Positions 43,489-51,984 of a stretch of 64,000 bases of DNA are shown piece after piece. The DNA is from Candidatus Kryptobacter tengchongensis (GTDB taxonomy: Bacteria > Bacteroidota > Ignavibacteria > Kryptoniales > Kryptoniaceae). The position numbers were made by a program, and so were the translations under genes. The notes below the pieces were generated by a model, which ran no database searches, had not been told where the DNA came from, and worked only from the letters and a program-made list of their open reading frames with translations. Numbering within the stretch: position 1 is the first letter of the stretch; each line of letters starts with the position of its first letter. The stretch is from the NCBI GenBank assembly GCA_001485605.1, contig FAON01000009.1:1-64000 (forward strand), in the 5' to 3' direction.

Positions 43489-44610
43489 TCACTTCGCTAA
43501 AACCATCTTCTTAGTTGCCACATAATTTCCAGCAATCATCCTGTATAGATAAACTCCGCTTGCCACACGGTTCCCATGGTCGTCCGTCCCATCCCATACA
43601 ACTTTGTATACACCCGGCTCATACCTTTCACCATCAATCAACCTTCTTATAATTCTCCCGGAGATATCATAAATTTCTAACCTTACATCGCAAGACTTTG
43701 GAACCGAAAACTCAATGCTTGTTGAAGGATTAAACGGATTCGGATAATTTTGAGCAAGGCGAAATGTAAACGCAACCTCTGAAAGTTGTTCAACCTTTGT
43801 CTGCGGATGAGCCCAGTTCGGCTTATGGCATTGATCACAAGTCATAATTGATTTAACATTGTCCTTATAAGCAGAGCCATGGCAAGCAAGGCAACCTGTT
43901 ACAACTCCAGGGAGTTGATATGTTTGCTGGAATTGACTATTTTTCCAAGCATTTAATAATTCAACTGTTTTAGCTGCAACATCACCTGTTAACCTTCCAC
44001 ACCTTTCTTTTCTTTCAGTTGAACCAGCTTTGTAGCCAGAAGCTACACACCACTTTGTAACTGACACATGGCATAGAGCCGAGCCACAGCTAGATTGAGG
44101 CAGAGCCTGGTTTAACCTGTTATCGTAGAATTGTCCATTTTGGGCATATTGATTGCTAATATCACTTGGGAACAACGCTTGTGTATACCAGCCCATAATT
44201 TCATGAACGATTTTATCAGTTGTTGCCTTATCACAAAACAAATTGACAGCTGCAGCAGCTCCAAGCAACGCTCCACAAGTTGTTCCCCATCCAACAACCC
44301 CGCCATGCCCAAAAATCATCATTTCACACAATGGCAATAAAGTCGTAAACGGTTCCCCTACTTTTTCATGCATTGCGTAAACTATTGCCTTAAATGCGCC
44401 ATAACAGCATCCTTTACCAGTCCAATAGAATTGGTGCCCTAACTTTCTTACATGTTCGGTATCAAGAATTTCATAAGGAAGTGGCCATGTAATTTGAGAT
44501 TGCGCTCTTACATTATTAGCAAGATTAATAATTGAAAAACCTATAGCGCCCCCAACAGCGCTTTTTGCGGTAAGTTCAAGAAATTGTTTACGCGTTAATT
44601 TTTCTCCCAT
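43489..44610 (-). CDS. Split-Soret-type multihaem cytochrome / C_GCAxxG_C_C protein with type IX sorting domain
   Basis: 373 aa. The N-terminus has a Tat-like signal ('LTRKQFLEL', one Arg-Lys rather than twin Arg, then a hydrophobic stretch to about residue 37). Residues 60-130 carry the redox-Cys pattern of the C_GCAxxG_C_C family: C68, C69, C95, C112 (TCGALLGA), C126. C175-x4-C180-H181, C240-x2-C243-H244 and C258-x2-C261-H262 are haem c candidates, as in split-Soret cytochrome c. Residues about 285-373 are a type A sorting domain (QNYPNPFNPST ... SGVYLYRM ... KKMVLAK). This predicts a haem protein anchored on the cell surface. It is divergent from the NrfD operon, has its own sigma-54-like element at 44677-44692, and ends at a terminator. 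Electron partner is inferred. Confidence 0.8.
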   Translation of the reverse strand: MGEKLTRKQFLELTAKSAVGGAIGFSIINLANNVRAQSQITWPLPYEILDTEHVRKLGHQFYWTGKGCCYGAFKAIVYAMHEKVGEPFTTLLPLCEMMIFGHGGVVGWGTTCGALLGAAAAVNLFCDKATTDKIVHEIMGWYTQALFPSDISNQYAQNGQFYDNRLNQALPQSSCGSALCHVSVTKWCVASGYKAGSTERKERCGRLTGDVAAKTVELLNAWKNSQFQQTYQLPGVVTGCLACHGSAYKDNVKSIMTCDQCHKPNWAHPQTKVEQLSEVAFTFRLAQNYPNPFNPSTSIEFSVPKSCDVRLEIYDISGRIIRRLIDGERYEPGVYKVVWDGTDDHGNRVASGVYLYRMIAGNYVATKKMVLAK

Positions 44611-44676
44611 GGCTGAAATGTGCTTTTGTTTTTTAAGTTTTTCTTTTTACAAGGTGCACTTCACTTCTAAAAATAG

Positions 44677-44692
44677 ACAAATTTTATGCCAA
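44677..44692 (-). promoter_or_regulatory. Sigma-54-like promoter for the cytochrome gene
   Basis: Minus-strand TTGGCATAAAATTTGT: GGCA and TTG with the exact GG-to-(GC) spacing of the TGGCAC-N5-TTGC consensus. The -12 C is replaced by T. Predicted start near 44665, leader about 55 nt. Confidence 0.55.
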
Positions 44693-44982: not shown

Positions 44983-44999
44983 CTGGCATTTCTTTTGAA
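44983..44999 (+). promoter_or_regulatory. Sigma-54-like promoter for the NrfD redox operon
   Basis: CTGGCATTTCTTTTGAA: GGCA-T-N5-TTG with exact spacing and A instead of C at the last -12 base. Predicted start is near 45010, which makes the upstream GTG at 45011 leaderless and favours the ATG at 45041. Confidence 0.6.
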
Positions 45000-45040
45000 C
45001 TTAATAATATGTGAGTAAAATAAAAACTGGAGAAATTGCC

Positions 45041-45709
45041 ATGGTAGCACTTTTTGTAATAGCAACAATTTTAGTTTGCTTAACAATTGATTATTTTGTT
45101 CAAAGAGCACAGAAAAAGCGTGAAGCTTATCAACCGCAGGTTATGTTAAGTCCTGAAAGTTTTATTTTACCCAGAGGTTATTTCTTTAGCAAAGCGCACA
45201 CTTGGCTTGAGATTCTATTTTCTGGAAAGGTTTATGTTGGGGTTGACGATTTCATTTCAAAGGTAACTGGAAAAATTGATGCGGTTGAAGTTTTGCCAGT
45301 TGGAGAGAAAATCACAAAGGGTGAACCTTTATTCAAAATTAGACAAGGGGAACGAACCCTAACATTTCTCTCGCCTGTAAGTGGAAAGATTGCAAAAATT
45401 AATCCGATCATATTTGAATCACCACAGACAATTTTGAAGGATCCATACTTAAATGGCTGGATTATTATGATTGAACCTGAGGATATCGCATCAGAAGTCA
45501 AAAACCTTTTGATTGGAAGTGAAGCTTCCAAATGGTTGAAAAACGAGATAAGAAGATTTAGGGAGTTTATAAGCAAAGAAGCGCCAAAATTTTCACCAGC
45601 CCTGGAGTTAACACTTGCAGATGGCGGGCTCGTGATAAAGGGAGTCCTTCAAAATGTTGACGCTAAAACATGGGAAAAATTTGAAAAGGAATTCATTCAG
45701 CAATCTTAA
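45041..45709 (+). CDS. Membrane-anchored GcvH-fold protein lacking the lipoyl lysine
   Basis: 222 aa from the ATG at 45041, which has GGAG 9 nt upstream; an in-frame GTG at 45011 would start at the predicted transcription start. One N-terminal TM ('MVALFVIATILVCLTIDYFV') followed by basic residues implies a cytoplasmic C-terminal part. Residues about 50-145 match glycine cleavage H protein: 'AHTWLEILFSGKVYVGVDDF', 'GEKITKGEPLFKI', 'LSPVSGKIAKIN', 'DPYLNGWIIMIEPED'. Aligning to the SVKA loop of E. coli GcvH places Glu104 (RQGERT) where the lipoylated Lys should be. It therefore cannot carry lipoate there and is probably a structural subunit of the ferredoxin-NrfD complex. No glycine-cleavage genes are nearby. 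Confidence 0.82.
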   Translation: MVALFVIATILVCLTIDYFVQRAQKKREAYQPQVMLSPESFILPRGYFFSKAHTWLEILFSGKVYVGVDDFISKVTGKIDAVEVLPVGEKITKGEPLFKIRQGERTLTFLSPVSGKIAKINPIIFESPQTILKDPYLNGWIIMIEPEDIASEVKNLLIGSEASKWLKNEIRRFREFISKEAPKFSPALELTLADGGLVIKGVLQNVDAKTWEKFEKEFIQQS

Positions 45710-45730
45710 AAATTAAACTCGGGTTCAAAA

Positions 45731-46501
45731 ATGAAATATGGGATTTTAATTGATGTAACCAGATGCATAGGTTGCTATGCTTGTGAGGAAGCGTGCGCTG
45801 AAAGATGGGGCAATCCTACTACAGAAACACACCAACTCTCTTCAATTCAAAATACTGCCGTTGAAGATCACAATGGAATTTATGTTCCCCGACTCTGTAT
45901 GCATTGCGAAAAACCAACCTGTGCATCTGTTTGTCCAGTCGGAGCATTTCAAAAAACAAAACTCGGTCCCGTCACTTATGATCCTTCAAAATGTCTTGGA
46001 TGCAGATATTGTATGCAAGCATGTCCATTCAATATACCGAAATATCAATGGAATAAATTAAACCCAAAGGTCACCAAGTGTGATATGTGTTATGAAAGGA
46101 TAAAGAATGGTGGGATCCCAGCCTGTGTTGAAGCATGCCCAGCCGAGGCAAGAACTTTTGGAACAAGGGAAGAACTAATTGAAGAAGCAAAGAGAAGAAT
46201 TAACGAAAATCCCGAAACATATTATCCGCATATCTTTGGTTTAAAAGAAGCTGGTGGAACTTCAGTGCTTTACCTTGCAGATAGACCTATGCAAAAACTT
46301 GGCATAAAAGTTAATTTGCCAGAAGTACCACTTTCTCATTTCACAGAACAAATTATGTCAAAAATTCCTAACTACATCTTTTGGGGTGGGACATTGCTAT
46401 TTGGAATATGGTGGATAACAAAACGCAGAGATGAGGTTCAAAAACTTCAAAGGAAACTCAAAGAAATGGAAGAAAACAACAAAAAAGGAAATGAGAAATG
46501 A
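45731..46501 (+). CDS. Four-cluster ferredoxin subunit (HybA/NrfC/DsrO-like) with C-terminal membrane anchor
   Basis: 256-aa electron-transfer subunit. The first Cys group is C12-x2-C15-x2-C18-x3-C22 ('TRCIGCYACEEAC'). Others are 'RLCMHCEKPTCASVCPVGAF', 'SKCLGCRYCMQACPFNIP' and 'TKCDMCYERIKNGGIPACVEACPAEA', giving ligands for four [4Fe-4S] clusters. A TM at about 212-230 ('PNYIFWGGTLLFGIWWI') anchors it. There is no Tat or Sec signal, so the clusters are predicted on the cytoplasmic side, unlike periplasmic NrfC. The stop overlaps the NrfD start (ATGA). It passes electrons between NrfD and an unidentified partner. Confidence 0.92.
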   Translation: MKYGILIDVTRCIGCYACEEACAERWGNPTTETHQLSSIQNTAVEDHNGIYVPRLCMHCEKPTCASVCPVGAFQKTKLGPVTYDPSKCLGCRYCMQACPFNIPKYQWNKLNPKVTKCDMCYERIKNGGIPACVEACPAEARTFGTREELIEEAKRRINENPETYYPHIFGLKEAGGTSVLYLADRPMQKLGIKVNLPEVPLSHFTEQIMSKIPNYIFWGGTLLFGIWWITKRRDEVQKLQRKLKEMEENNKKGNEK

Positions 46502-47682
46502 AAATAAAAATTCCAAAACTTACATTTTGGGGTTCAGTCTTTTGGGTTATAGTAGCACTTGGAATTTACTCAACGATACTTCGCTTCACCAAAGGGCTTG
46601 GCGCAGCTACAAATTTAAGCGATAACTTCCCTTGGGGTTTGTGGATTGGCTTTGATGTCCTTTGCGGTGTTGGACTTGCAGCAGGAGGCTTCGTGATGGC
46701 AGCCGCCGTTTACATTTTTAACCTTGAAGAATATAAATCAATTCTCCCATCAGCAATCTTAACAGCTTTTCTTGGCTATCTTCTTGTAATTATTGCCCTA
46801 CTTTACGACCTCGGAAAACCATGGAATATATGGCATCCAATTATAATGTGGAATCCCGAATCTGTTATGTTTGAAGTAGCCTGGTGCGTTATGCTTTACA
46901 CAACAGTCCTCGCTCTTGAGTTCAGCCCAATGGTCTTTCAAAAATTTAAACTTGAAAAACCCCAAAAAATAATAAAAAGCCTGACAATCCCACTCGTCGT
47001 CGCTGGTGTAATCCTTTCCACACTTCATCAATCATCCCTTGGCTCTTTATATCTAATCGTTCCAGAAAAATTATACCCAATTTGGTATTCAAGCAATCTC
47101 CCTTATCTTTTCTTCCTCTCTGCAGTTGCAGTTGGACCAGCGATGGTCACAATTGAATCTTATTTAAGCTCAAGAGCCTTCAAAAGAGAAATTGAAATTC
47201 ATATACTCTCAAAACTTGCAAAGGTTACAGCTGTTGCACTAATGGTTTACTTCGTCCTGAAAGTTGAGGATATAATTAACTATAAACTTTTCCCATACAT
47301 TTTTAGCCTAAACTATGAAGCATTAATGTTTTGGCTTGAATTCATACTTGGGATAATCGTGCCGATAATCCTTCTTACAAATTCACGCATAAGAAGCAGC
47401 AGAAAAGGACTATTTGTTGCACAGCTTATAACTGTGCTTGGTTTCATTCTCAACCGATTAAATGTCAGCATAACCGCACTTGAAAACTATACTCAAGCTG
47501 GTTATTTCCCAAAATGGACTGAAATATCCGTGACACTTTTCATTGTTGCGCTTGGATTTGCCTCATTTAGATTAATAGCAAAACATTTGCCTGTATTTCC
47601 ACCAGAAGTTGAGGAAAGAAAAGCAATTGCCGAAGGTTTTGAAGTTATTCCAATAAAGGAAGTTTTTAAAGAGCAAAATTAA
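46498..47682 (+). CDS. NrfD/HybB-type quinone-interacting membrane subunit
   Basis: 394-aa polytopic protein of about ten TM helices. Typical segments are 'FWGSVFWVIVALGIYSTILRFTKGLG', 'SDNFPWGLWIGFDVLCGVGLAAGGFVMAAAVY', 'LYDLGKPWNIWHPIIMWNPESVMFEVAWCVMLY' and 'ILSTLHQSSLGSLYLIVPEK'. The last carries the conserved His-Q-S-S-L-G of the PsrC/HybB family near the quinone site. It oxidises or reduces menaquinone within the membrane. It overlaps the ferredoxin gene and is followed 7 nt later by the second GcvH-fold gene. No molybdopterin catalytic subunit is encoded nearby, so the terminal reaction is unknown. Confidence 0.93.
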   Translation: MKIKIPKLTFWGSVFWVIVALGIYSTILRFTKGLGAATNLSDNFPWGLWIGFDVLCGVGLAAGGFVMAAAVYIFNLEEYKSILPSAILTAFLGYLLVIIALLYDLGKPWNIWHPIIMWNPESVMFEVAWCVMLYTTVLALEFSPMVFQKFKLEKPQKIIKSLTIPLVVAGVILSTLHQSSLGSLYLIVPEKLYPIWYSSNLPYLFFLSAVAVGPAMVTIESYLSSRAFKREIEIHILSKLAKVTAVALMVYFVLKVEDIINYKLFPYIFSLNYEALMFWLEFILGIIVPIILLTNSRIRSSRKGLFVAQLITVLGFILNRLNVSITALENYTQAGYFPKWTEISVTLFIVALGFASFRLIAKHLPVFPPEVEERKAIAEGFEVIPIKEVFKEQN

Positions 47683-47689
47683 CATTACC

Positions 47690-48304
47690 ATGCTTGAAGA
47701 GAAAAACACATGTCAACGCATAGTTATTGATATTATTTCACGATTTGTTGAAAATCTCTCAAAGCTTGAATTTCCAGATGATAGACTTTATACAAGTTCG
47801 TACACCTGGGTCAAGCTTGAACAAGACTTTGTGATAGTCGGGATAAGTTCTTTAATCGTTTATTTCTTTTCCCCGATTGTTGAGTTTATATTCCTTGATG
47901 TTCCTTCACTTGTGAAGAAAAGAACTCCCTGTGCATGGACAATGCACAGGGATGGGATTATAACAATTCGCTCGCCCGTTCAAGGCGAGCTCTTTGAAAT
48001 AAATAGAACACTGCTAAAAAATCCCGACATCGCAAATAAAGACCCATATTTCGCAGGATGGCTTTTTAAAATAAAAACATCTGAAAAAATAGCTGGATTT
48101 TACAATAAAGTTGAATTTTTAAATCTGCACCATTACAAAGTTGAAATCTTTAAAAACGAGCTTCTCTCACTTATCTCCGAATTCCTTAAATCAGATTCAT
48201 TTTCCACACTTCAAGATGGCGGGAAAATTATTGAAACGCTGAAGGATTTGCTTGGGGTAAAACGATATCTTTCGCTTATAAGCAAAATTTTTGAAATCCA
48301 TTAA
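47690..48304 (+). CDS. Second GcvH-fold protein lacking the lipoyl lysine
   Basis: 204 aa, no TM. Residues about 35-112 follow the H-protein fold: 'YTSSYTWVKLEQDFVIVGIS', 'VEFIFLDVPSLVKKRTPCAW', 'TIRSPVQGELFEIN', 'NPDIANKDPYFAGWLFKIKT'. The position of the modified Lys is Asp88 (MHRDGI), so lipoylation is not possible there. The C-terminal 90 residues are helical and unlike GcvH. It differs from the first copy by having no anchor and a CAW motif in the loop. A perfect 11-bp DNA hairpin (47926-47952) coincides with the codons of that loop. Last gene of the redox operon. Confidence 0.78.
   Translation: MLEEKNTCQRIVIDIISRFVENLSKLEFPDDRLYTSSYTWVKLEQDFVIVGISSLIVYFFSPIVEFIFLDVPSLVKKRTPCAWTMHRDGIITIRSPVQGELFEINRTLLKNPDIANKDPYFAGWLFKIKTSEKIAGFYNKVEFLNLHHYKVEIFKNELLSLISEFLKSDSFSTLQDGGKIIETLKDLLGVKRYLSLISKIFEIH
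47926..47952 (+). repeat. Perfect intragenic inverted repeat (11-bp stem, 5-nt loop)
   Basis: TCCCTGTGCAT - GGACA - ATGCACAGGGA within the second GcvH-fold gene, with no T-tract after it. It codes residues 79-88 at the pseudo-lipoyl loop. Could be an mRNA stability or translation-pausing structure, or chance. Confidence 0.6.
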
Positions 48305-48416: not shown

Positions 48417-48454
48417 ATAAAACAAATGAGACCAAACATTCAATCTTAACTGTG

Positions 48455-50062
48455 ATGAAAATTTTTCAAAGTTTAGCATTTAAGCTTTTTATCCTTATCT
48501 TCATACTCATCTTGGGGATCACGGGTATTTTTTCAACCTTGATCATACGATGGCAGACCCAGAAATGTTTGCAAATATCAATGGAAAATGCCCTTAAAAC
48601 AAGCGATCTTATTAAAAGAGCTACACACTATAGCATGCTTCACAATCGCAGAGATGATATTTATCAGATAATAAAAATGCTTGGTCAACAACCAGGGATT
48701 GAAGTAATAAGGATATACAACAAGCGTGGGGAGATAACATTTTCAACCATACCTCATGAGGTTGGCAAGGTAATGTCTGTTGAAAGCGAAGCTTGCAATG
48801 TCTGCCATCGCAGCGGTAAAATAACTGTCCCCGCAGAAGCAACACAACTTACACGCATTTTTCACTCAACCGATGGATATGAAGTCCTTGGGGCTATAAA
48901 TCCGATAAAAAACGAAGAATCATGTTACAATGCCAATTGCCATGCGCACAAAAAAGAACAAACAATACTTGGCGTCTTTGATGTAATGATCTCACTCAAA
49001 GATATGCGAAGGAATATAGAGAAACTTACCAAGATCCAATACGCAAGCGGAATTGCGATGCTTCTTATAATTTCAATTTTTGTTCTCATTTTCATTTGGA
49101 AATTTGTTAATATCCCGTTAAGGAAATTAACATACGGAACAAGGGAGATAATGAATGGAAATCTTGATTTCAGACTTGATCTTTCATCAAAGGATGAAAT
49201 TGGATTGCTCGCCGAATCTTTCAATAAAATGACCGAAAGGCTTAAACAGGCACATGAAGAACTTTTAAACTGGGCTAAAACCCTTGAACAAAAAGTCAAT
49301 GAGAAGACAGCCGAACTCCAAAGAGCCCATGCTTATATGTTGCAGATTGAAAAAATGGCTTCGCTTGGAAAGCTTTCCGCAACCGTTGCACACGAACTTA
49401 ATAATCCTCTTGAAGGAATCCTTACATATGCGAAACTTTTAAAAAGAAAACTTCAAAATGAGAAAATTAACGAAGATGAGAAAGAAGAAATTTTGAACGA
49501 ACTTTCAATAATAATTGATGAAACAGCAAGGTGCGGTAACATAGTTAAAAATCTTCTCCTATTCTCAAAACAAAAGGTCGGGGAATTTAAAGATGAAGAT
49601 ATATGTCAGGTAATAAAAAGAAGTGTTAATTTGATCTCCCATCACCTTCAAATGAATAACATAAAACTTGAACTTGATATTCCTGAAAACCCCGTGTTTA
49701 TTTTTTGCGATGCTCAACAAATTGAACAAATGCTTATCGCAATGGAGATCAACTCAATTGAGGCAATGCCAGATGGCGGAACCTTAAAAATTGAACTTAA
49801 AGAAATTGACAGCGATAAAATTCAAATTAAGGTGATAGATACCGGTGTCGGGATACCTGAAGAAATTCTGCCACACATATTTGAACCATTCTTCACAACA
49901 AAAAAAGAAGGTAAAGGAACAGGACTTGGTCTTGCGGTTGTATATGGAATCGTTGAAAGGCATGCGGGTAAAATAAGCGTTGAATCAAAAGTAAATCACG
50001 GAACAACATTTACAGTCACATTACCAAAAAAACCAAACATCAACTATGATGAAAAAATTTAG
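48455..50062 (+). CDS. Sensor histidine kinase with haem c motifs in the periplasmic sensor
   Basis: 535 aa. TM1 (about 9-31) and TM2 (about 199-218) enclose a periplasmic domain with CxxCH at 115-119 (CNVCH) and C158-x4-C163-H164 (CYNANCH), suggesting covalently bound haem c as redox or gas sensor. HAMP (about 218-270) and a coiled coil follow, then HisKA with His314 in 'ATVAHELNNPLEGILTY', and HATPase with 'IDTGVGIPEEILPHIFEPFFTT' and 'GKGTGLGLAVVYGIVERH'. An adjacent GTG is in frame at 48452; the ATG at 48455 is used (residue numbers count from the GTG). It overlaps the regulator gene by 17 nt, marking a cognate pair. Signal (oxygen, NO, redox potential) is inference. Confidence 0.88.
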   Translation: MKIFQSLAFKLFILIFILILGITGIFSTLIIRWQTQKCLQISMENALKTSDLIKRATHYSMLHNRRDDIYQIIKMLGQQPGIEVIRIYNKRGEITFSTIPHEVGKVMSVESEACNVCHRSGKITVPAEATQLTRIFHSTDGYEVLGAINPIKNEESCYNANCHAHKKEQTILGVFDVMISLKDMRRNIEKLTKIQYASGIAMLLIISIFVLIFIWKFVNIPLRKLTYGTREIMNGNLDFRLDLSSKDEIGLLAESFNKMTERLKQAHEELLNWAKTLEQKVNEKTAELQRAHAYMLQIEKMASLGKLSATVAHELNNPLEGILTYAKLLKRKLQNEKINEDEKEEILNELSIIIDETARCGNIVKNLLLFSKQKVGEFKDEDICQVIKRSVNLISHHLQMNNIKLELDIPENPVFIFCDAQQIEQMLIAMEINSIEAMPDGGTLKIELKEIDSDKIQIKVIDTGVGIPEEILPHIFEPFFTTKKEGKGTGLGLAVVYGIVERHAGKISVESKVNHGTTFTVTLPKKPNINYDEKI

Positions 50063-51395
50063 CATTTTAATTGTTGATGATGAATTCATCGTCAGAGATT
50101 CACTATCAAAATGGTTTACCCAAGATGGATATAAAGTTGGAGTTGCTGAAAACGCAGCACAAGCACTTAAACTTATGAATGAGGGACCCTGGGATATAGT
50201 TTTCATTGACATCAAAATGCCTGGGATGAATGGGCTTGAACTTCAAAAAAGAATAAAGGAAATTGACCCGAACGCCATAATTATAATAATCACCGCCTTC
50301 GCATCGGTTGACACAGCAGTTCAAGCCCTTAAAGAGGGAGCTTACGATTATGTTACAAAGCCAATTGATCCAGACTATCTATCGCACCTCGTTAAAAACG
50401 CCCTTAAACAGAAAAAGTTAACAGATGAAAACATTAAACTGCGTGAACATGTATCCGAACTCCTGATGGAAGAGGAACTTATCGGCGAAAGCCCGCAGAT
50501 TAAAAAAGTAATTGAACTTGCAAAAACAGTCGCCCCAACAAATACAACTGTAATGATAAGGGGTGAAAGTGGAACTGGGAAAGAACTTGTTGCAAGATTA
50601 ATCCATGCACATAGCCCGAGAAGATTTTTCCCGTTTATTTCGGTAAATTGCGGAGCAGTCCCAGATACACTCCTTGAATCGGAACTCTTTGGACACGAAA
50701 AAGGAGCTTTCACAGATGCCCTCTACAGAAGAAAAGGTAAATTTGAACTCGCTGACGGAGGAACAATTTTCCTTGACGAGGTTGGAACCATAAGCCTAAA
50801 AATGCAAGTTCAACTTCTTCGTGTCCTTGAAACAAAACAATTCACAAGAATTGGCGGGAATGAGGTAATAACAAGTGACTTCAGAGTTATATGCGCAACG
50901 AATTCAGACCTCGAACAAGCAGTTAAAGAAGGGCGATTCAGAGAAGACCTTTACTACCGTCTTAATGTTTTCACAATCTTCATTCCACCATTAAGAGAAA
51001 GAAGAACCGACATCCCTCTTATAGCAAATTACTATCTTAAAAAATATGCAACGATGATGCACAAACCCATAACCGAAATTTCACCCGAAGCAATGGATAT
51101 CCTAATAAGATACGACTGGCCAGGAAATGTCCGAGAACTAAAAAATGCCATTGAAAGAGCAATGGTTCTTGCAAAACCCCCGGCAATCAAACCGCAGGAT
51201 TTACCAATTCAATTAACTGAAGAAGAACAACCAGAAGATGAAACACTTGAAGCAGTTGAAAAAGCGCATATACTTAAAATTTTGAGCAAAACAAACTGGA
51301 ACATAACTCAATCTGCGAAAATACTTGGCATAGACAGAGTTACACTTTACAATAAAATTGAAAAATATAACCTGAAGAGAAACAGGGTTACCTGA
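50046..51395 (+). CDS. Sigma-54-dependent response regulator (NtrC family)
   Basis: 449 aa. The receiver domain (4-120) has the phospho-acceptor Asp in 'DIVFIDIKMPGMNG' and Lys in 'DYVTKPID'. The AAA+ domain has Walker A 'GESGTGKELVARLIH', Walker B 'GGTIFLDEVGTI' and 'NCGAVPDTLLESELFGHEKGAF'. A Fis-type helix-turn-helix ends the protein ('NWNITQSAKILGIDRVTLYNKIEKYNL'). The sigma-54-contacting GAFTGA loop reads GAFTDA, with Gly replaced by Asp. It pairs with the haem kinase and likely activates the three sigma-54-like promoters in this block, including its own. Confidence 0.93.
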   Translation: MMKKFSILIVDDEFIVRDSLSKWFTQDGYKVGVAENAAQALKLMNEGPWDIVFIDIKMPGMNGLELQKRIKEIDPNAIIIIITAFASVDTAVQALKEGAYDYVTKPIDPDYLSHLVKNALKQKKLTDENIKLREHVSELLMEEELIGESPQIKKVIELAKTVAPTNTTVMIRGESGTGKELVARLIHAHSPRRFFPFISVNCGAVPDTLLESELFGHEKGAFTDALYRRKGKFELADGGTIFLDEVGTISLKMQVQLLRVLETKQFTRIGGNEVITSDFRVICATNSDLEQAVKEGRFREDLYYRLNVFTIFIPPLRERRTDIPLIANYYLKKYATMMHKPITEISPEAMDILIRYDWPGNVRELKNAIERAMVLAKPPAIKPQDLPIQLTEEEQPEDETLEAVEKAHILKILSKTNWNITQSAKILGIDRVTLYNKIEKYNLKRNRVT

Positions 51396-51402
51396 AAATC
51401 TT

Positions 51403-51984
51403 ATGTCTTCATCAAAATCAAACAAAATCCTCATAGCCCCAATCTATCCCGTTGATTTCGCACTCGCGCTTACGCTCGTTTCACCACTCAAAGAAATTTT
51501 CAAATGCGATGTCCTGCTTGACAATACGAATCACATAAATTTATCATTTGCTTATGATAGTTCACGCTCTCAATTTAATTCAACAAAAATAATTTTAGCG
51601 CTCTCGGAGAAATACAAAAATTTTAACGGAAAAGTTCTCGGCATAATTTCGGTTGATCTCTTCATCCCAGTTTTAACTTATGTATTTGGAGAGGCACAGC
51701 TTGGGGGAAAGGTTTCAATTGTGTCTACCCTCAGATTAAACGAAATCGCCTACGGTCTGCCAGAGAACAGAAAATTGACGGAGGAACGACTTCTAAAAGA
51801 AGCAGTTCATGAACTTGGACATAACTTTGGGCTTTTACATTGTGAAAATTATCTATGCGTCATGCACCCATCAACATCCATTGAAGAAGTTGATATAAAA
51901 ACTTCCTCATTCTGCAAAGATTGTTACGAAAAACTATTTGGGCAAACTTTTACCGAACTCAACGATCATCATAACTGCAAATAA
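51403..51984 (+). CDS. Archaemetzincin-family zinc metallopeptidase
   Basis: 193 aa. The signature 'HELGHNFGLLHC' gives the HExxHxxGxxHC zinc site. Further Cys follow in 'ENYLCVMHPS' (with the metzincin Met) and 'SSFCKDCYEKL' (CxxC structural zinc), exactly the archaemetzincin layout. The N-terminal part 'ILIAPIYPVDFALALTLVSPLKEIF' and 'KVLGIISVDLFIPVLTYVFGEAQLGGKVSIVST' fit the family. Probably cytosolic; substrates are unknown. It lies 7 nt after the response regulator, so it likely belongs to the same regulon. Its last 51 nt overlap the convergent YwiC-like gene. Confidence 0.9.
   Translation: MSSSKSNKILIAPIYPVDFALALTLVSPLKEIFKCDVLLDNTNHINLSFAYDSSRSQFNSTKIILALSEKYKNFNGKVLGIISVDLFIPVLTYVFGEAQLGGKVSIVSTLRLNEIAYGLPENRKLTEERLLKEAVHELGHNFGLLHCENYLCVMHPSTSIEEVDIKTSSFCKDCYEKLFGQTFTELNDHHNCK

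Follow-up and report, generated by a model that had tools for sequence, protein, structure and literature searches.

Paired GcvH-fold proteins without the lipoyl lysine flank a ferredoxin–NrfD pair in an operon with a haem-motif histidine kinase

The first 64,000 nucleotides of contig FAON01000009.1 from Candidatus Kryptobacter tengchongensis (GCA_001485605.1), referred to here as the window, carry an operon in which two proteins related to GcvH, the lipoyl carrier of glycine cleavage, enclose a four-cluster iron–sulfur (Fe-S) ferredoxin and a membrane subunit of the NrfD family, and in which the genes of a histidine kinase, a sigma-54 response regulator and an archaemetzincin (peptidase M54) follow. 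The two GcvH-like proteins, termed A (P0001) and B (P0002), are the subject of this analysis. An earlier, sequence-only reading of this DNA had pointed to a ferredoxin–NrfD pair bracketed by two GcvH-fold proteins in which Glu and Asp replace the lipoylated lysine, and this description holds: the four open reading frames (ORFs) lie on the + strand at 45011/45041-45709, 45731-46501, 46498-47682 and 47690-48304, both outer products match PF01597, and the two inner genes, whose products exceed the cut-offs of Fer4_11 and PF03916, overlap and are encoded together. Most orthologues of GcvH-like A use the equivalent of the ATG at 45041 (MVALFV...) as their start; residues of P0001 are numbered here from the start at 45011, and its Glu114 is the Glu104 counted from ATG 45041. 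The features of the operon are as follows.

45041..45709, + strand: GcvH-like A (P0001; PF01597), with one N-terminal transmembrane (TM) helix, a cytoplasmic GcvH-fold domain and a C-terminal helical extension with DGG
45350-45352, + strand: codon of the hairpin-tip Glu of GcvH-like A, at the position of the lipoyl Lys
45620-45628, + strand: DGG of GcvH-like A, in the C-terminal extension
45731..46501, + strand: four-cluster Fe-S protein, HybA/HmcB-like, without a twin-arginine translocation (Tat) signal (Fer4_11, 88 bits; NF045715 HmcB, 247 bits; 16 Cys)
46498..47682, + strand: NrfD-family integral membrane protein, HybB/HmcC-like (PF03916, 94 bits; NF045714 HmcC, 349 bits)
47690..48304, + strand: GcvH-like B (P0002), soluble GcvH-fold protein (PF01597)
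47951-47953, + strand: codon of Asp88 of GcvH-like B, at the position of the lipoyl Lys
48215-48223, + strand: DGG of GcvH-like B, in an extension of the same kind as in GcvH-like A
48452..50062, + strand: membrane histidine kinase with periplasmic sensor, HAMP, HisKA and HATPase domains and two c-type haem motifs
48794-48808 and 48923-48943, + strand: haem motifs CNVCH and CYNANCH of the kinase, in the periplasmic sensor
50046..51395, + strand: NtrC-type response regulator with receiver (PF00072), sigma-54 AAA (PF00158) and Fis helix-turn-helix (PF02954) domains, all above cut-off
51403..51984, + strand: archaemetzincin, the final gene of the operon, 8 bp past the regulator (PF07998, 84.3 bits against a cut-off of 24.4)

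Both proteins belong to the GcvH family by profile comparison, with PF01597 scores of 70.3 bits for P0001 and 58.5 bits for P0002 against a cut-off of 22.2, and both stay below the cut-off of the gcvH equivalog model TIGR00527 (58.2 and 54.0 bits; cut-off, 115.85). The only further PF01597 protein of the genome is a normal GcvH (L001, IEAVKAVSDLFSPVSG; 168.6 bits), encoded on another contig next to an ORF judged by eye to be glycine dehydrogenase-like, and no gcv gene, gcvT and gcvP included, is found in the operon of the GcvH-like proteins. In an alignment to this canonical GcvH, its lipoyl Lys, which lies seven residues before SPVSG, corresponds to Glu114 of P0001 and Asp88 of P0002. In AlphaFold models, for which alignments of natural relatives served as input, these residues occupy the tip of a beta-hairpin both in P0001 (model ma133e60b32db; mean predicted local distance difference test score, pLDDT, 89.7; strands 106-112 and 115-120) and in P0002 (model m99249f8b3b54; mean pLDDT 93.2; strands 80-86 and 89-94); alignment and models thus bear out the assignment of Glu104 and Asp88 to the lipoyl position. 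Structure searches were centred on the GcvH domain, and the best match was an H protein in each case, namely 1htp for P0001 (Z 19.0; root-mean-square deviation, rmsd, 1.4 A; 131 residues) and 3a7l for P0002 (Z 21.5; rmsd 1.1 A; 125 residues). The match of both predicted structures to the H protein is unambiguous, and a sequence search of the PDB with the domain gave H proteins only. Weak matches to NqrA_N (E 0.0016) and RnfC_N (E 0.2) were put down to the common barrel-sandwich fold.

The residue that stands in place of the lysine was compared in 220 distinct GcvH-like ORFs from related loci, and varies widely: it is Gly in 71, Asp in 36, Asn in 29, Ser in 25, Lys in 16, Glu in 15, Ala in 7 and Gln in 7, with Phe (4), His (3), Trp (3), Thr (2), Arg (1) and a gap (1) as rarer states. 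Across five genomes of the window's genus, the tip of GcvH-like A reads E/A/E/N/G and that of GcvH-like B is Asp in all five. The variability of the tip column is close to the mean for the domain (rank 43 of 111 and 38 of 109, counted from the most variable). Because the residue varies and the column is unconserved, only the missing lipoyl site is a feature of the whole family, and the replacement is, as judged from these sequences, a mere turn residue of the kind typical of a tight turn. The sequence-only reading had raised the question of whether the acidic substitution is clade-wide; the varied tips of the neighbours among the 220 members answer it in the negative, and acidic residues as a conserved feature were discarded on the orthologue variation and the unconserved column.

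Other parts of the two proteins are retained far more strictly. Core residues such as H63, W65, G77, D79, P122, G125 and W150 (P0001 numbering) are invariant, their conservation extending across many phyla, and a C-terminal extension with a near-invariant DGG is present in both copies (P0001 204-206; P0002 176-178). The earlier claim that the proteins are retained and not decaying agrees with this conservation of fold, core and new DGG motif across phyla in which the Lys is not conserved, whereas the electrostatic role that was attached to their acidic tips does not survive the variation described above. Similarly, one copy is membrane-anchored by a TM helix and the other soluble, as had been stated, but the new C-terminal domain is not special to the soluble copy; a separate domain in the second copy only was ruled out by the DGG extension common to both. 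At the position three residues before the tip, P0001 has Arg, in place of the Glu of the canonical H proteins compared, and none of the 16 members with a tip Lys keeps this Glu. Most GcvH-like B orthologues (L068, L070, L072 and about 45 other loci) possess an N-terminal motif CxWxxAGxxxYKLCDRxFxCExCPFD, whose four Cys form a possible metal (cluster or zinc) site, and which has been lost from GcvH-like B of Kryptonium, the window copy included. In a phylogenetic tree, canonical H proteins form a clade of their own and the GcvH-like branches are long. The window proteins are therefore like GcvH in the barrel-sandwich fold over about 125 residues (Z 19-21.5; rmsd 1.1-1.4 A), the core residues and the hairpin position, and unlike it in lacking the lipoyl Lys, the Glu at -3 and gcvT/gcvP neighbours, in scoring below the equivalog cut-offs, and in adding C-terminal helices with DGG and, for A, a TM anchor.

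The gene order in relatives is GcvH-like A, Fe-S, NrfD, GcvH-like B, histidine kinase and sigma-54 regulator. The 84 non-redundant loci of 9 kb or more were retrieved via GcvH-like A, so that linkage is informative for the other genes only: Fe-S and NrfD genes occur in 74, the haem kinase in 73, the sigma-54 regulator in 69, and at least two GcvH-like genes in 81. In a scan of named genomes, the window comes out close to Candidatus Kryptonium (best relative, 84% identical), and GcvH-like A is detected in Kryptoniota, Ignavibacteria, Bacteroidota, Poribacteria, Methylomirabilota/NC10, Zixibacteria, Acidobacteria, KSB1, Krumholzibacteria, Deltaproteobacteria, Armatimonadetes, Nitrospinae, Nitrospirae, Spirochaetes, Caldisericaceae and Myxococcales; most carriers are metagenome-assembled genomes, and single phylum assignments may be wrong. 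Bacteroidota isolates that carry it are Sunxiuqinia dokdonensis, S. indica and S. elliptica.

Among NCBIfam models, HmcB and HmcC come closest to the Fe-S and NrfD subunits, which likens the pair to HmcBC and HybAB of Hmc and hydrogenase-2, but the equivalog cut-offs are not reached (NF045715, 247 against 420 bits; NF045714, 349 against 550 bits), the operon contains neither a hydrogenase nor an HmcA-type cytochrome, and the pair is flanked by GcvH-like genes. In addition, the window Fe-S subunit has no Tat signal, although many homologues (for example, L091 and L093) carry Tat motifs; tail charges suggest a C-in arrangement. A second NrfD complex, of the Qrc/Act type, is encoded in relatives (loci L071, L075, L079, L085, L089, L100 and L101), and comprises a triheme cytochrome, a degenerate molybdopterin-like subunit, FeS and NrfD, together with a GcvH-like pair, diheme kinase and regulator of its own. 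QrcABCD and alternative complex III are NrfD complexes with a degenerate molybdopterin subunit, and the second system of the relatives is like them in its triheme cytochrome, molybdopterin-like subunit, FeS and NrfD. The GcvH-like pair, kinase and archaemetzincin present here set the systems apart from these complexes, whose descriptions are not known to include any of the three.

The orientation of GcvH-like A can be judged from two sources, since a positive-inside pattern is seen around the TM helix in 118 of 147 A-type proteins, and since in Bacteroidota a signal peptide, a weak PBP-like match and a TM helix precede the GcvH domain. The positive-inside pattern and the periplasmic PBP-like–TM–GcvH fusions together put the GcvH domain on the cytoplasmic side. 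Proteins shaped like receptors, with a signal peptide, PBP-like periplasmic domain, TM helix and cytoplasmic GcvH domain, are found at L150 4099-5769 and at other Bacteroidota loci. Fusions of a different kind occur in 11 loci (L087, L090-L092, L153, L162, L168, L177-L179 and L182), where both GcvH-like domains are each joined to a receiver domain; Pfam confirms both receiver and GcvH domains in the L091 fusion, and in the tree the larger receiver-fused GcvH domain clusters with GcvH-like A (94/91). No separate sigma-54 regulator was seen in the sequence around nine of these 11 loci, two of the nine being short contigs.

The kinase homologues conserve the pattern CxxCH plus CX4CH in 74 of 75 distinct sequences, which makes it very probable that the kinase binds two c haems. 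The sensor, in which CXXCH is conserved, gives a weak Pfam match to a haem-sensor family (PF21563, E 0.013). The nearest described sensors are sCache_heme domains (DUF3365/Tll0287), which are extracytoplasmic, hold a covalent c haem and are reported as NO (nitric oxide) or redox sensors feeding a kinase (preprint PMC12889525); the kinase here differs from them by the second motif (CX4CH), 43 residues on. The regulator has the complete receiver, sigma-54 AAA and Fis architecture of the NtrC type, and rpoN is present in the genome. In a scan for -24/-12 promoters, 27 of 96 operons have sites of at least 12 bits immediately 5' of their first GcvH-like gene, where 1.3 would be expected. The window has related sites on either side of the intergenic region between the operon and a divergent cytochrome gene.

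43489..44610, - strand: split-Soret cytochrome c-like protein, divergent from the operon, with a C_GCAxxG_C_C domain, haem motifs, a Tat-like N-terminus and a type IX secretion system (T9SS) sorting tail (Por_Secre_tail)
44676..44691, - strand: sigma-54-like site TGGCATAAAATTTGTC facing the split-Soret cytochrome gene; the -12 GC reads GT
44984..44999, + strand: sigma-54-like site TGGCATTTCTTTTGAA, 41 bp 5' of the first operon gene; the -12 GC reads GA; 7.1 bits

The cytochrome-like protein scores above the cut-off of PF09719 (53 bits) and below that of the split-Soret cytochrome c model NF047622 (183 against 400 bits). Its divergent arrangement with the operon recurs in Kryptonium (L064, L065 and L067) and in Bacterium HR10 (L124), where divergent sigma-54 sites also serve the split-Soret cytochrome gene. 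In the three Kryptonium relatives, the sites on the operon side are full, with 14.3 bits in each, and those on the cytochrome side are strong, with 14.3 bits in L064 and L067 and 12.3 bits in L065. The Kryptonium split-Soret cytochrome-like protein carries the T9SS sorting tail and has its promoter region in common with the operon.

An M54 homologue stands beside the operon in 61 of 107 loci, and the full motif HExxHxxGxxHCx4CxMx17CxxC (a last gap of 15-19 residues being allowed) is present in 60 of 60 operon-linked M54 proteins examined. Of 61 relatives, 35 combine the GcvH-like system with M54, 4 have the system without M54, 2 have M54 without the system and 20 lack both, and 149 genomes sampled independently from a Bacteroidota order give 18, 0, 4 and 127, respectively; the Fisher p values (3e-10 and 1e-19) ignore shared ancestry within each group. 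In the Bacteroidota order, 17 of 18 GcvH-like/M54 pairs lie on one contig, within about 6 kb. No M54 is found in genomes with the receiver-fusion form only (G036, G045, G054 and two reached via L153 and L168), and M54 therefore tracks the sigma-54 form.

The best explanation as a whole, to which about even credence can be given, is that both proteins represent a specialised branch of the GcvH fold that is not lipoylated and belongs to a conserved redox operon, rather than glycine-cleavage carriers that have failed. They are proposed to act in the cytoplasm as adaptors or regulators, as subunits of a quinone-linked NrfD unit that the haem kinase controls. The NrfD/Fe-S pair would pass electrons between menaquinol and c-type cytochromes of the periplasm, probably the split-Soret cytochrome in the window and multihaem cytochromes elsewhere. 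The haem kinase would sense redox conditions in the periplasm or a haem ligand, for example NO, with its regulator turning on the operon from the sigma-54 promoter. The GcvH-like domains on the cytoplasmic face would couple the kinase pathway to the NrfD unit, most directly where they are fused to receivers and no DNA-binding regulator is nearby, and the archaemetzincin would be a co-expressed cytoplasmic protease, possibly turning over a component of the module. A more tentative proposal makes the GcvH fold itself a signalling output domain: the diheme kinase would phosphorylate the receiver–GcvH proteins, or regulate the free ones via sigma-54, and these would bind the cytoplasmic face of NrfD and gate quinone-linked electron flow, with the archaemetzincin resetting the switch. 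If true, respiration would here be controlled by a module unlike any known so far.

Several observations weigh against a role of the GcvH-like proteins in the NrfD unit or against its proposed control. The loci L114 8013-12704 and L158 8013-13476 contain A, B, kinase and regulator without Fe-S or NrfD (an archaemetzincin follows in L158), and three Desulfobacteraceae loci have a GcvH-like pair with no NrfD nearby; the proteins may therefore serve the signalling arm and not the NrfD unit. Both sigma-54 sites of the window keep TGGCA and are weakened at the -12 GC, and relatedness within the samples bears on the M54 statistics, as noted. The main rival, which appears rather unlikely, accordingly confines the GcvH-like proteins to signalling, as scaffold or output partners of the diheme kinase, and regards NrfD/Fe-S as just one regulated target in the operon. 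The receiver–GcvH fusions, the PBP-like sensor–TM–GcvH fusions of Bacteroidota, and L195, in which the kinase–regulator–archaemetzincin set is apart from gcv-FeS-NrfD, would all fit it as well. However, in most loci FeS-NrfD is tightly enclosed by A and B (FeS and NrfD being present in 74 of 84), and the distant Qrc/Act-like complex with its own GcvH-like pair favours a link of these proteins with NrfD.

The remaining alternatives concern the lost lysine. It is improbable that the proteins are cofactor carriers after all, modified at another residue or lipoylated on the tip Lys where there is one; such a Lys in 16 of 220 members and the N-terminal Cys motif of most B orthologues, which could bind a cluster or zinc, would allow it, but most members have no Lys, all that have one are without the Glu at -3, the Cys motif is gone from Kryptonium, and a canonical GcvH is encoded elsewhere in the genome. 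Less probable still is an electrostatic function in which Glu and Asp replace the lipoyl arm in docking on the ferredoxin subunit. In its favour, both window copies are acidic, for which the chance is roughly 5% with acidic tips in 51 of 220 members, and Asp88 is kept in all five Kryptonium B proteins. Against it, the tip reads E/A/E/N/G in the A proteins of the same genus and is mostly Gly, Asn, Asp, Ser or Lys elsewhere, the column is unconserved, and a family-wide role of this kind is already refuted by the orthologues. Decaying GcvH paralogues carried along in a respiratory operon are scarcely credible: a functional residue is lost and the tree branches are long, but the frames are open, the fold core is conserved, a new near-invariant motif extends across many phyla, and 81 of 84 loci maintain at least two copies.

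Each part of the operon is of a known kind. GcvH-like proteins have been recruited to electron transfer outside glycine cleavage before, as LbpA is reported as a lipoate-binding component of the sHdr sulfur-oxidation system (PMC6067878); unlike LbpA, the window proteins have no lysine and are placed with NrfD and a two-component system. A review of NrfD proteins (PMC8076601) makes no mention of glycine, GcvH, lipoyl or histidine kinase, and the literature searched, from which most subscription papers fall outside the coverage, holds no account of GcvH with NrfD, histidine kinase or receiver domains, nor of the operon combination; this is not proof of novelty. A lipoyl-carrier fold would here have shed its cofactor and become a conserved part of redox respiration and signalling operons across many phyla, receiver fusions included. 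In lineages that have received little study, the operons would represent NrfD modules of a new class, controlled by haem kinases, and cultured carriers (Sunxiuqinia) exist.

Papers on archaemetzincin M54 say little on its biological role (PMC3427221; PMC4681839), and the latter mentions neither 'operon' nor 'two-component'. The operon protein is like the described M54 proteins in its full HExxHxxGxxHCx4CxM..CxxC motif and its PF07998 score above cut-off, and unlike them in being tied to a haem kinase and sigma-54 regulator. For bacterial archaemetzincins, proteases about whose biology almost nothing is known, the operon provides a genomic setting that is specific and testable. A second Kryptonium archaemetzincin (L193 7924-8463; L194 7345-7914) is encoded directly after suf-type Fe-S assembly genes and a Tat-signal superoxide dismutase-like protein, as judged by eye, and this context suggests a link of M54 to the maintenance of Fe-S or redox proteins.

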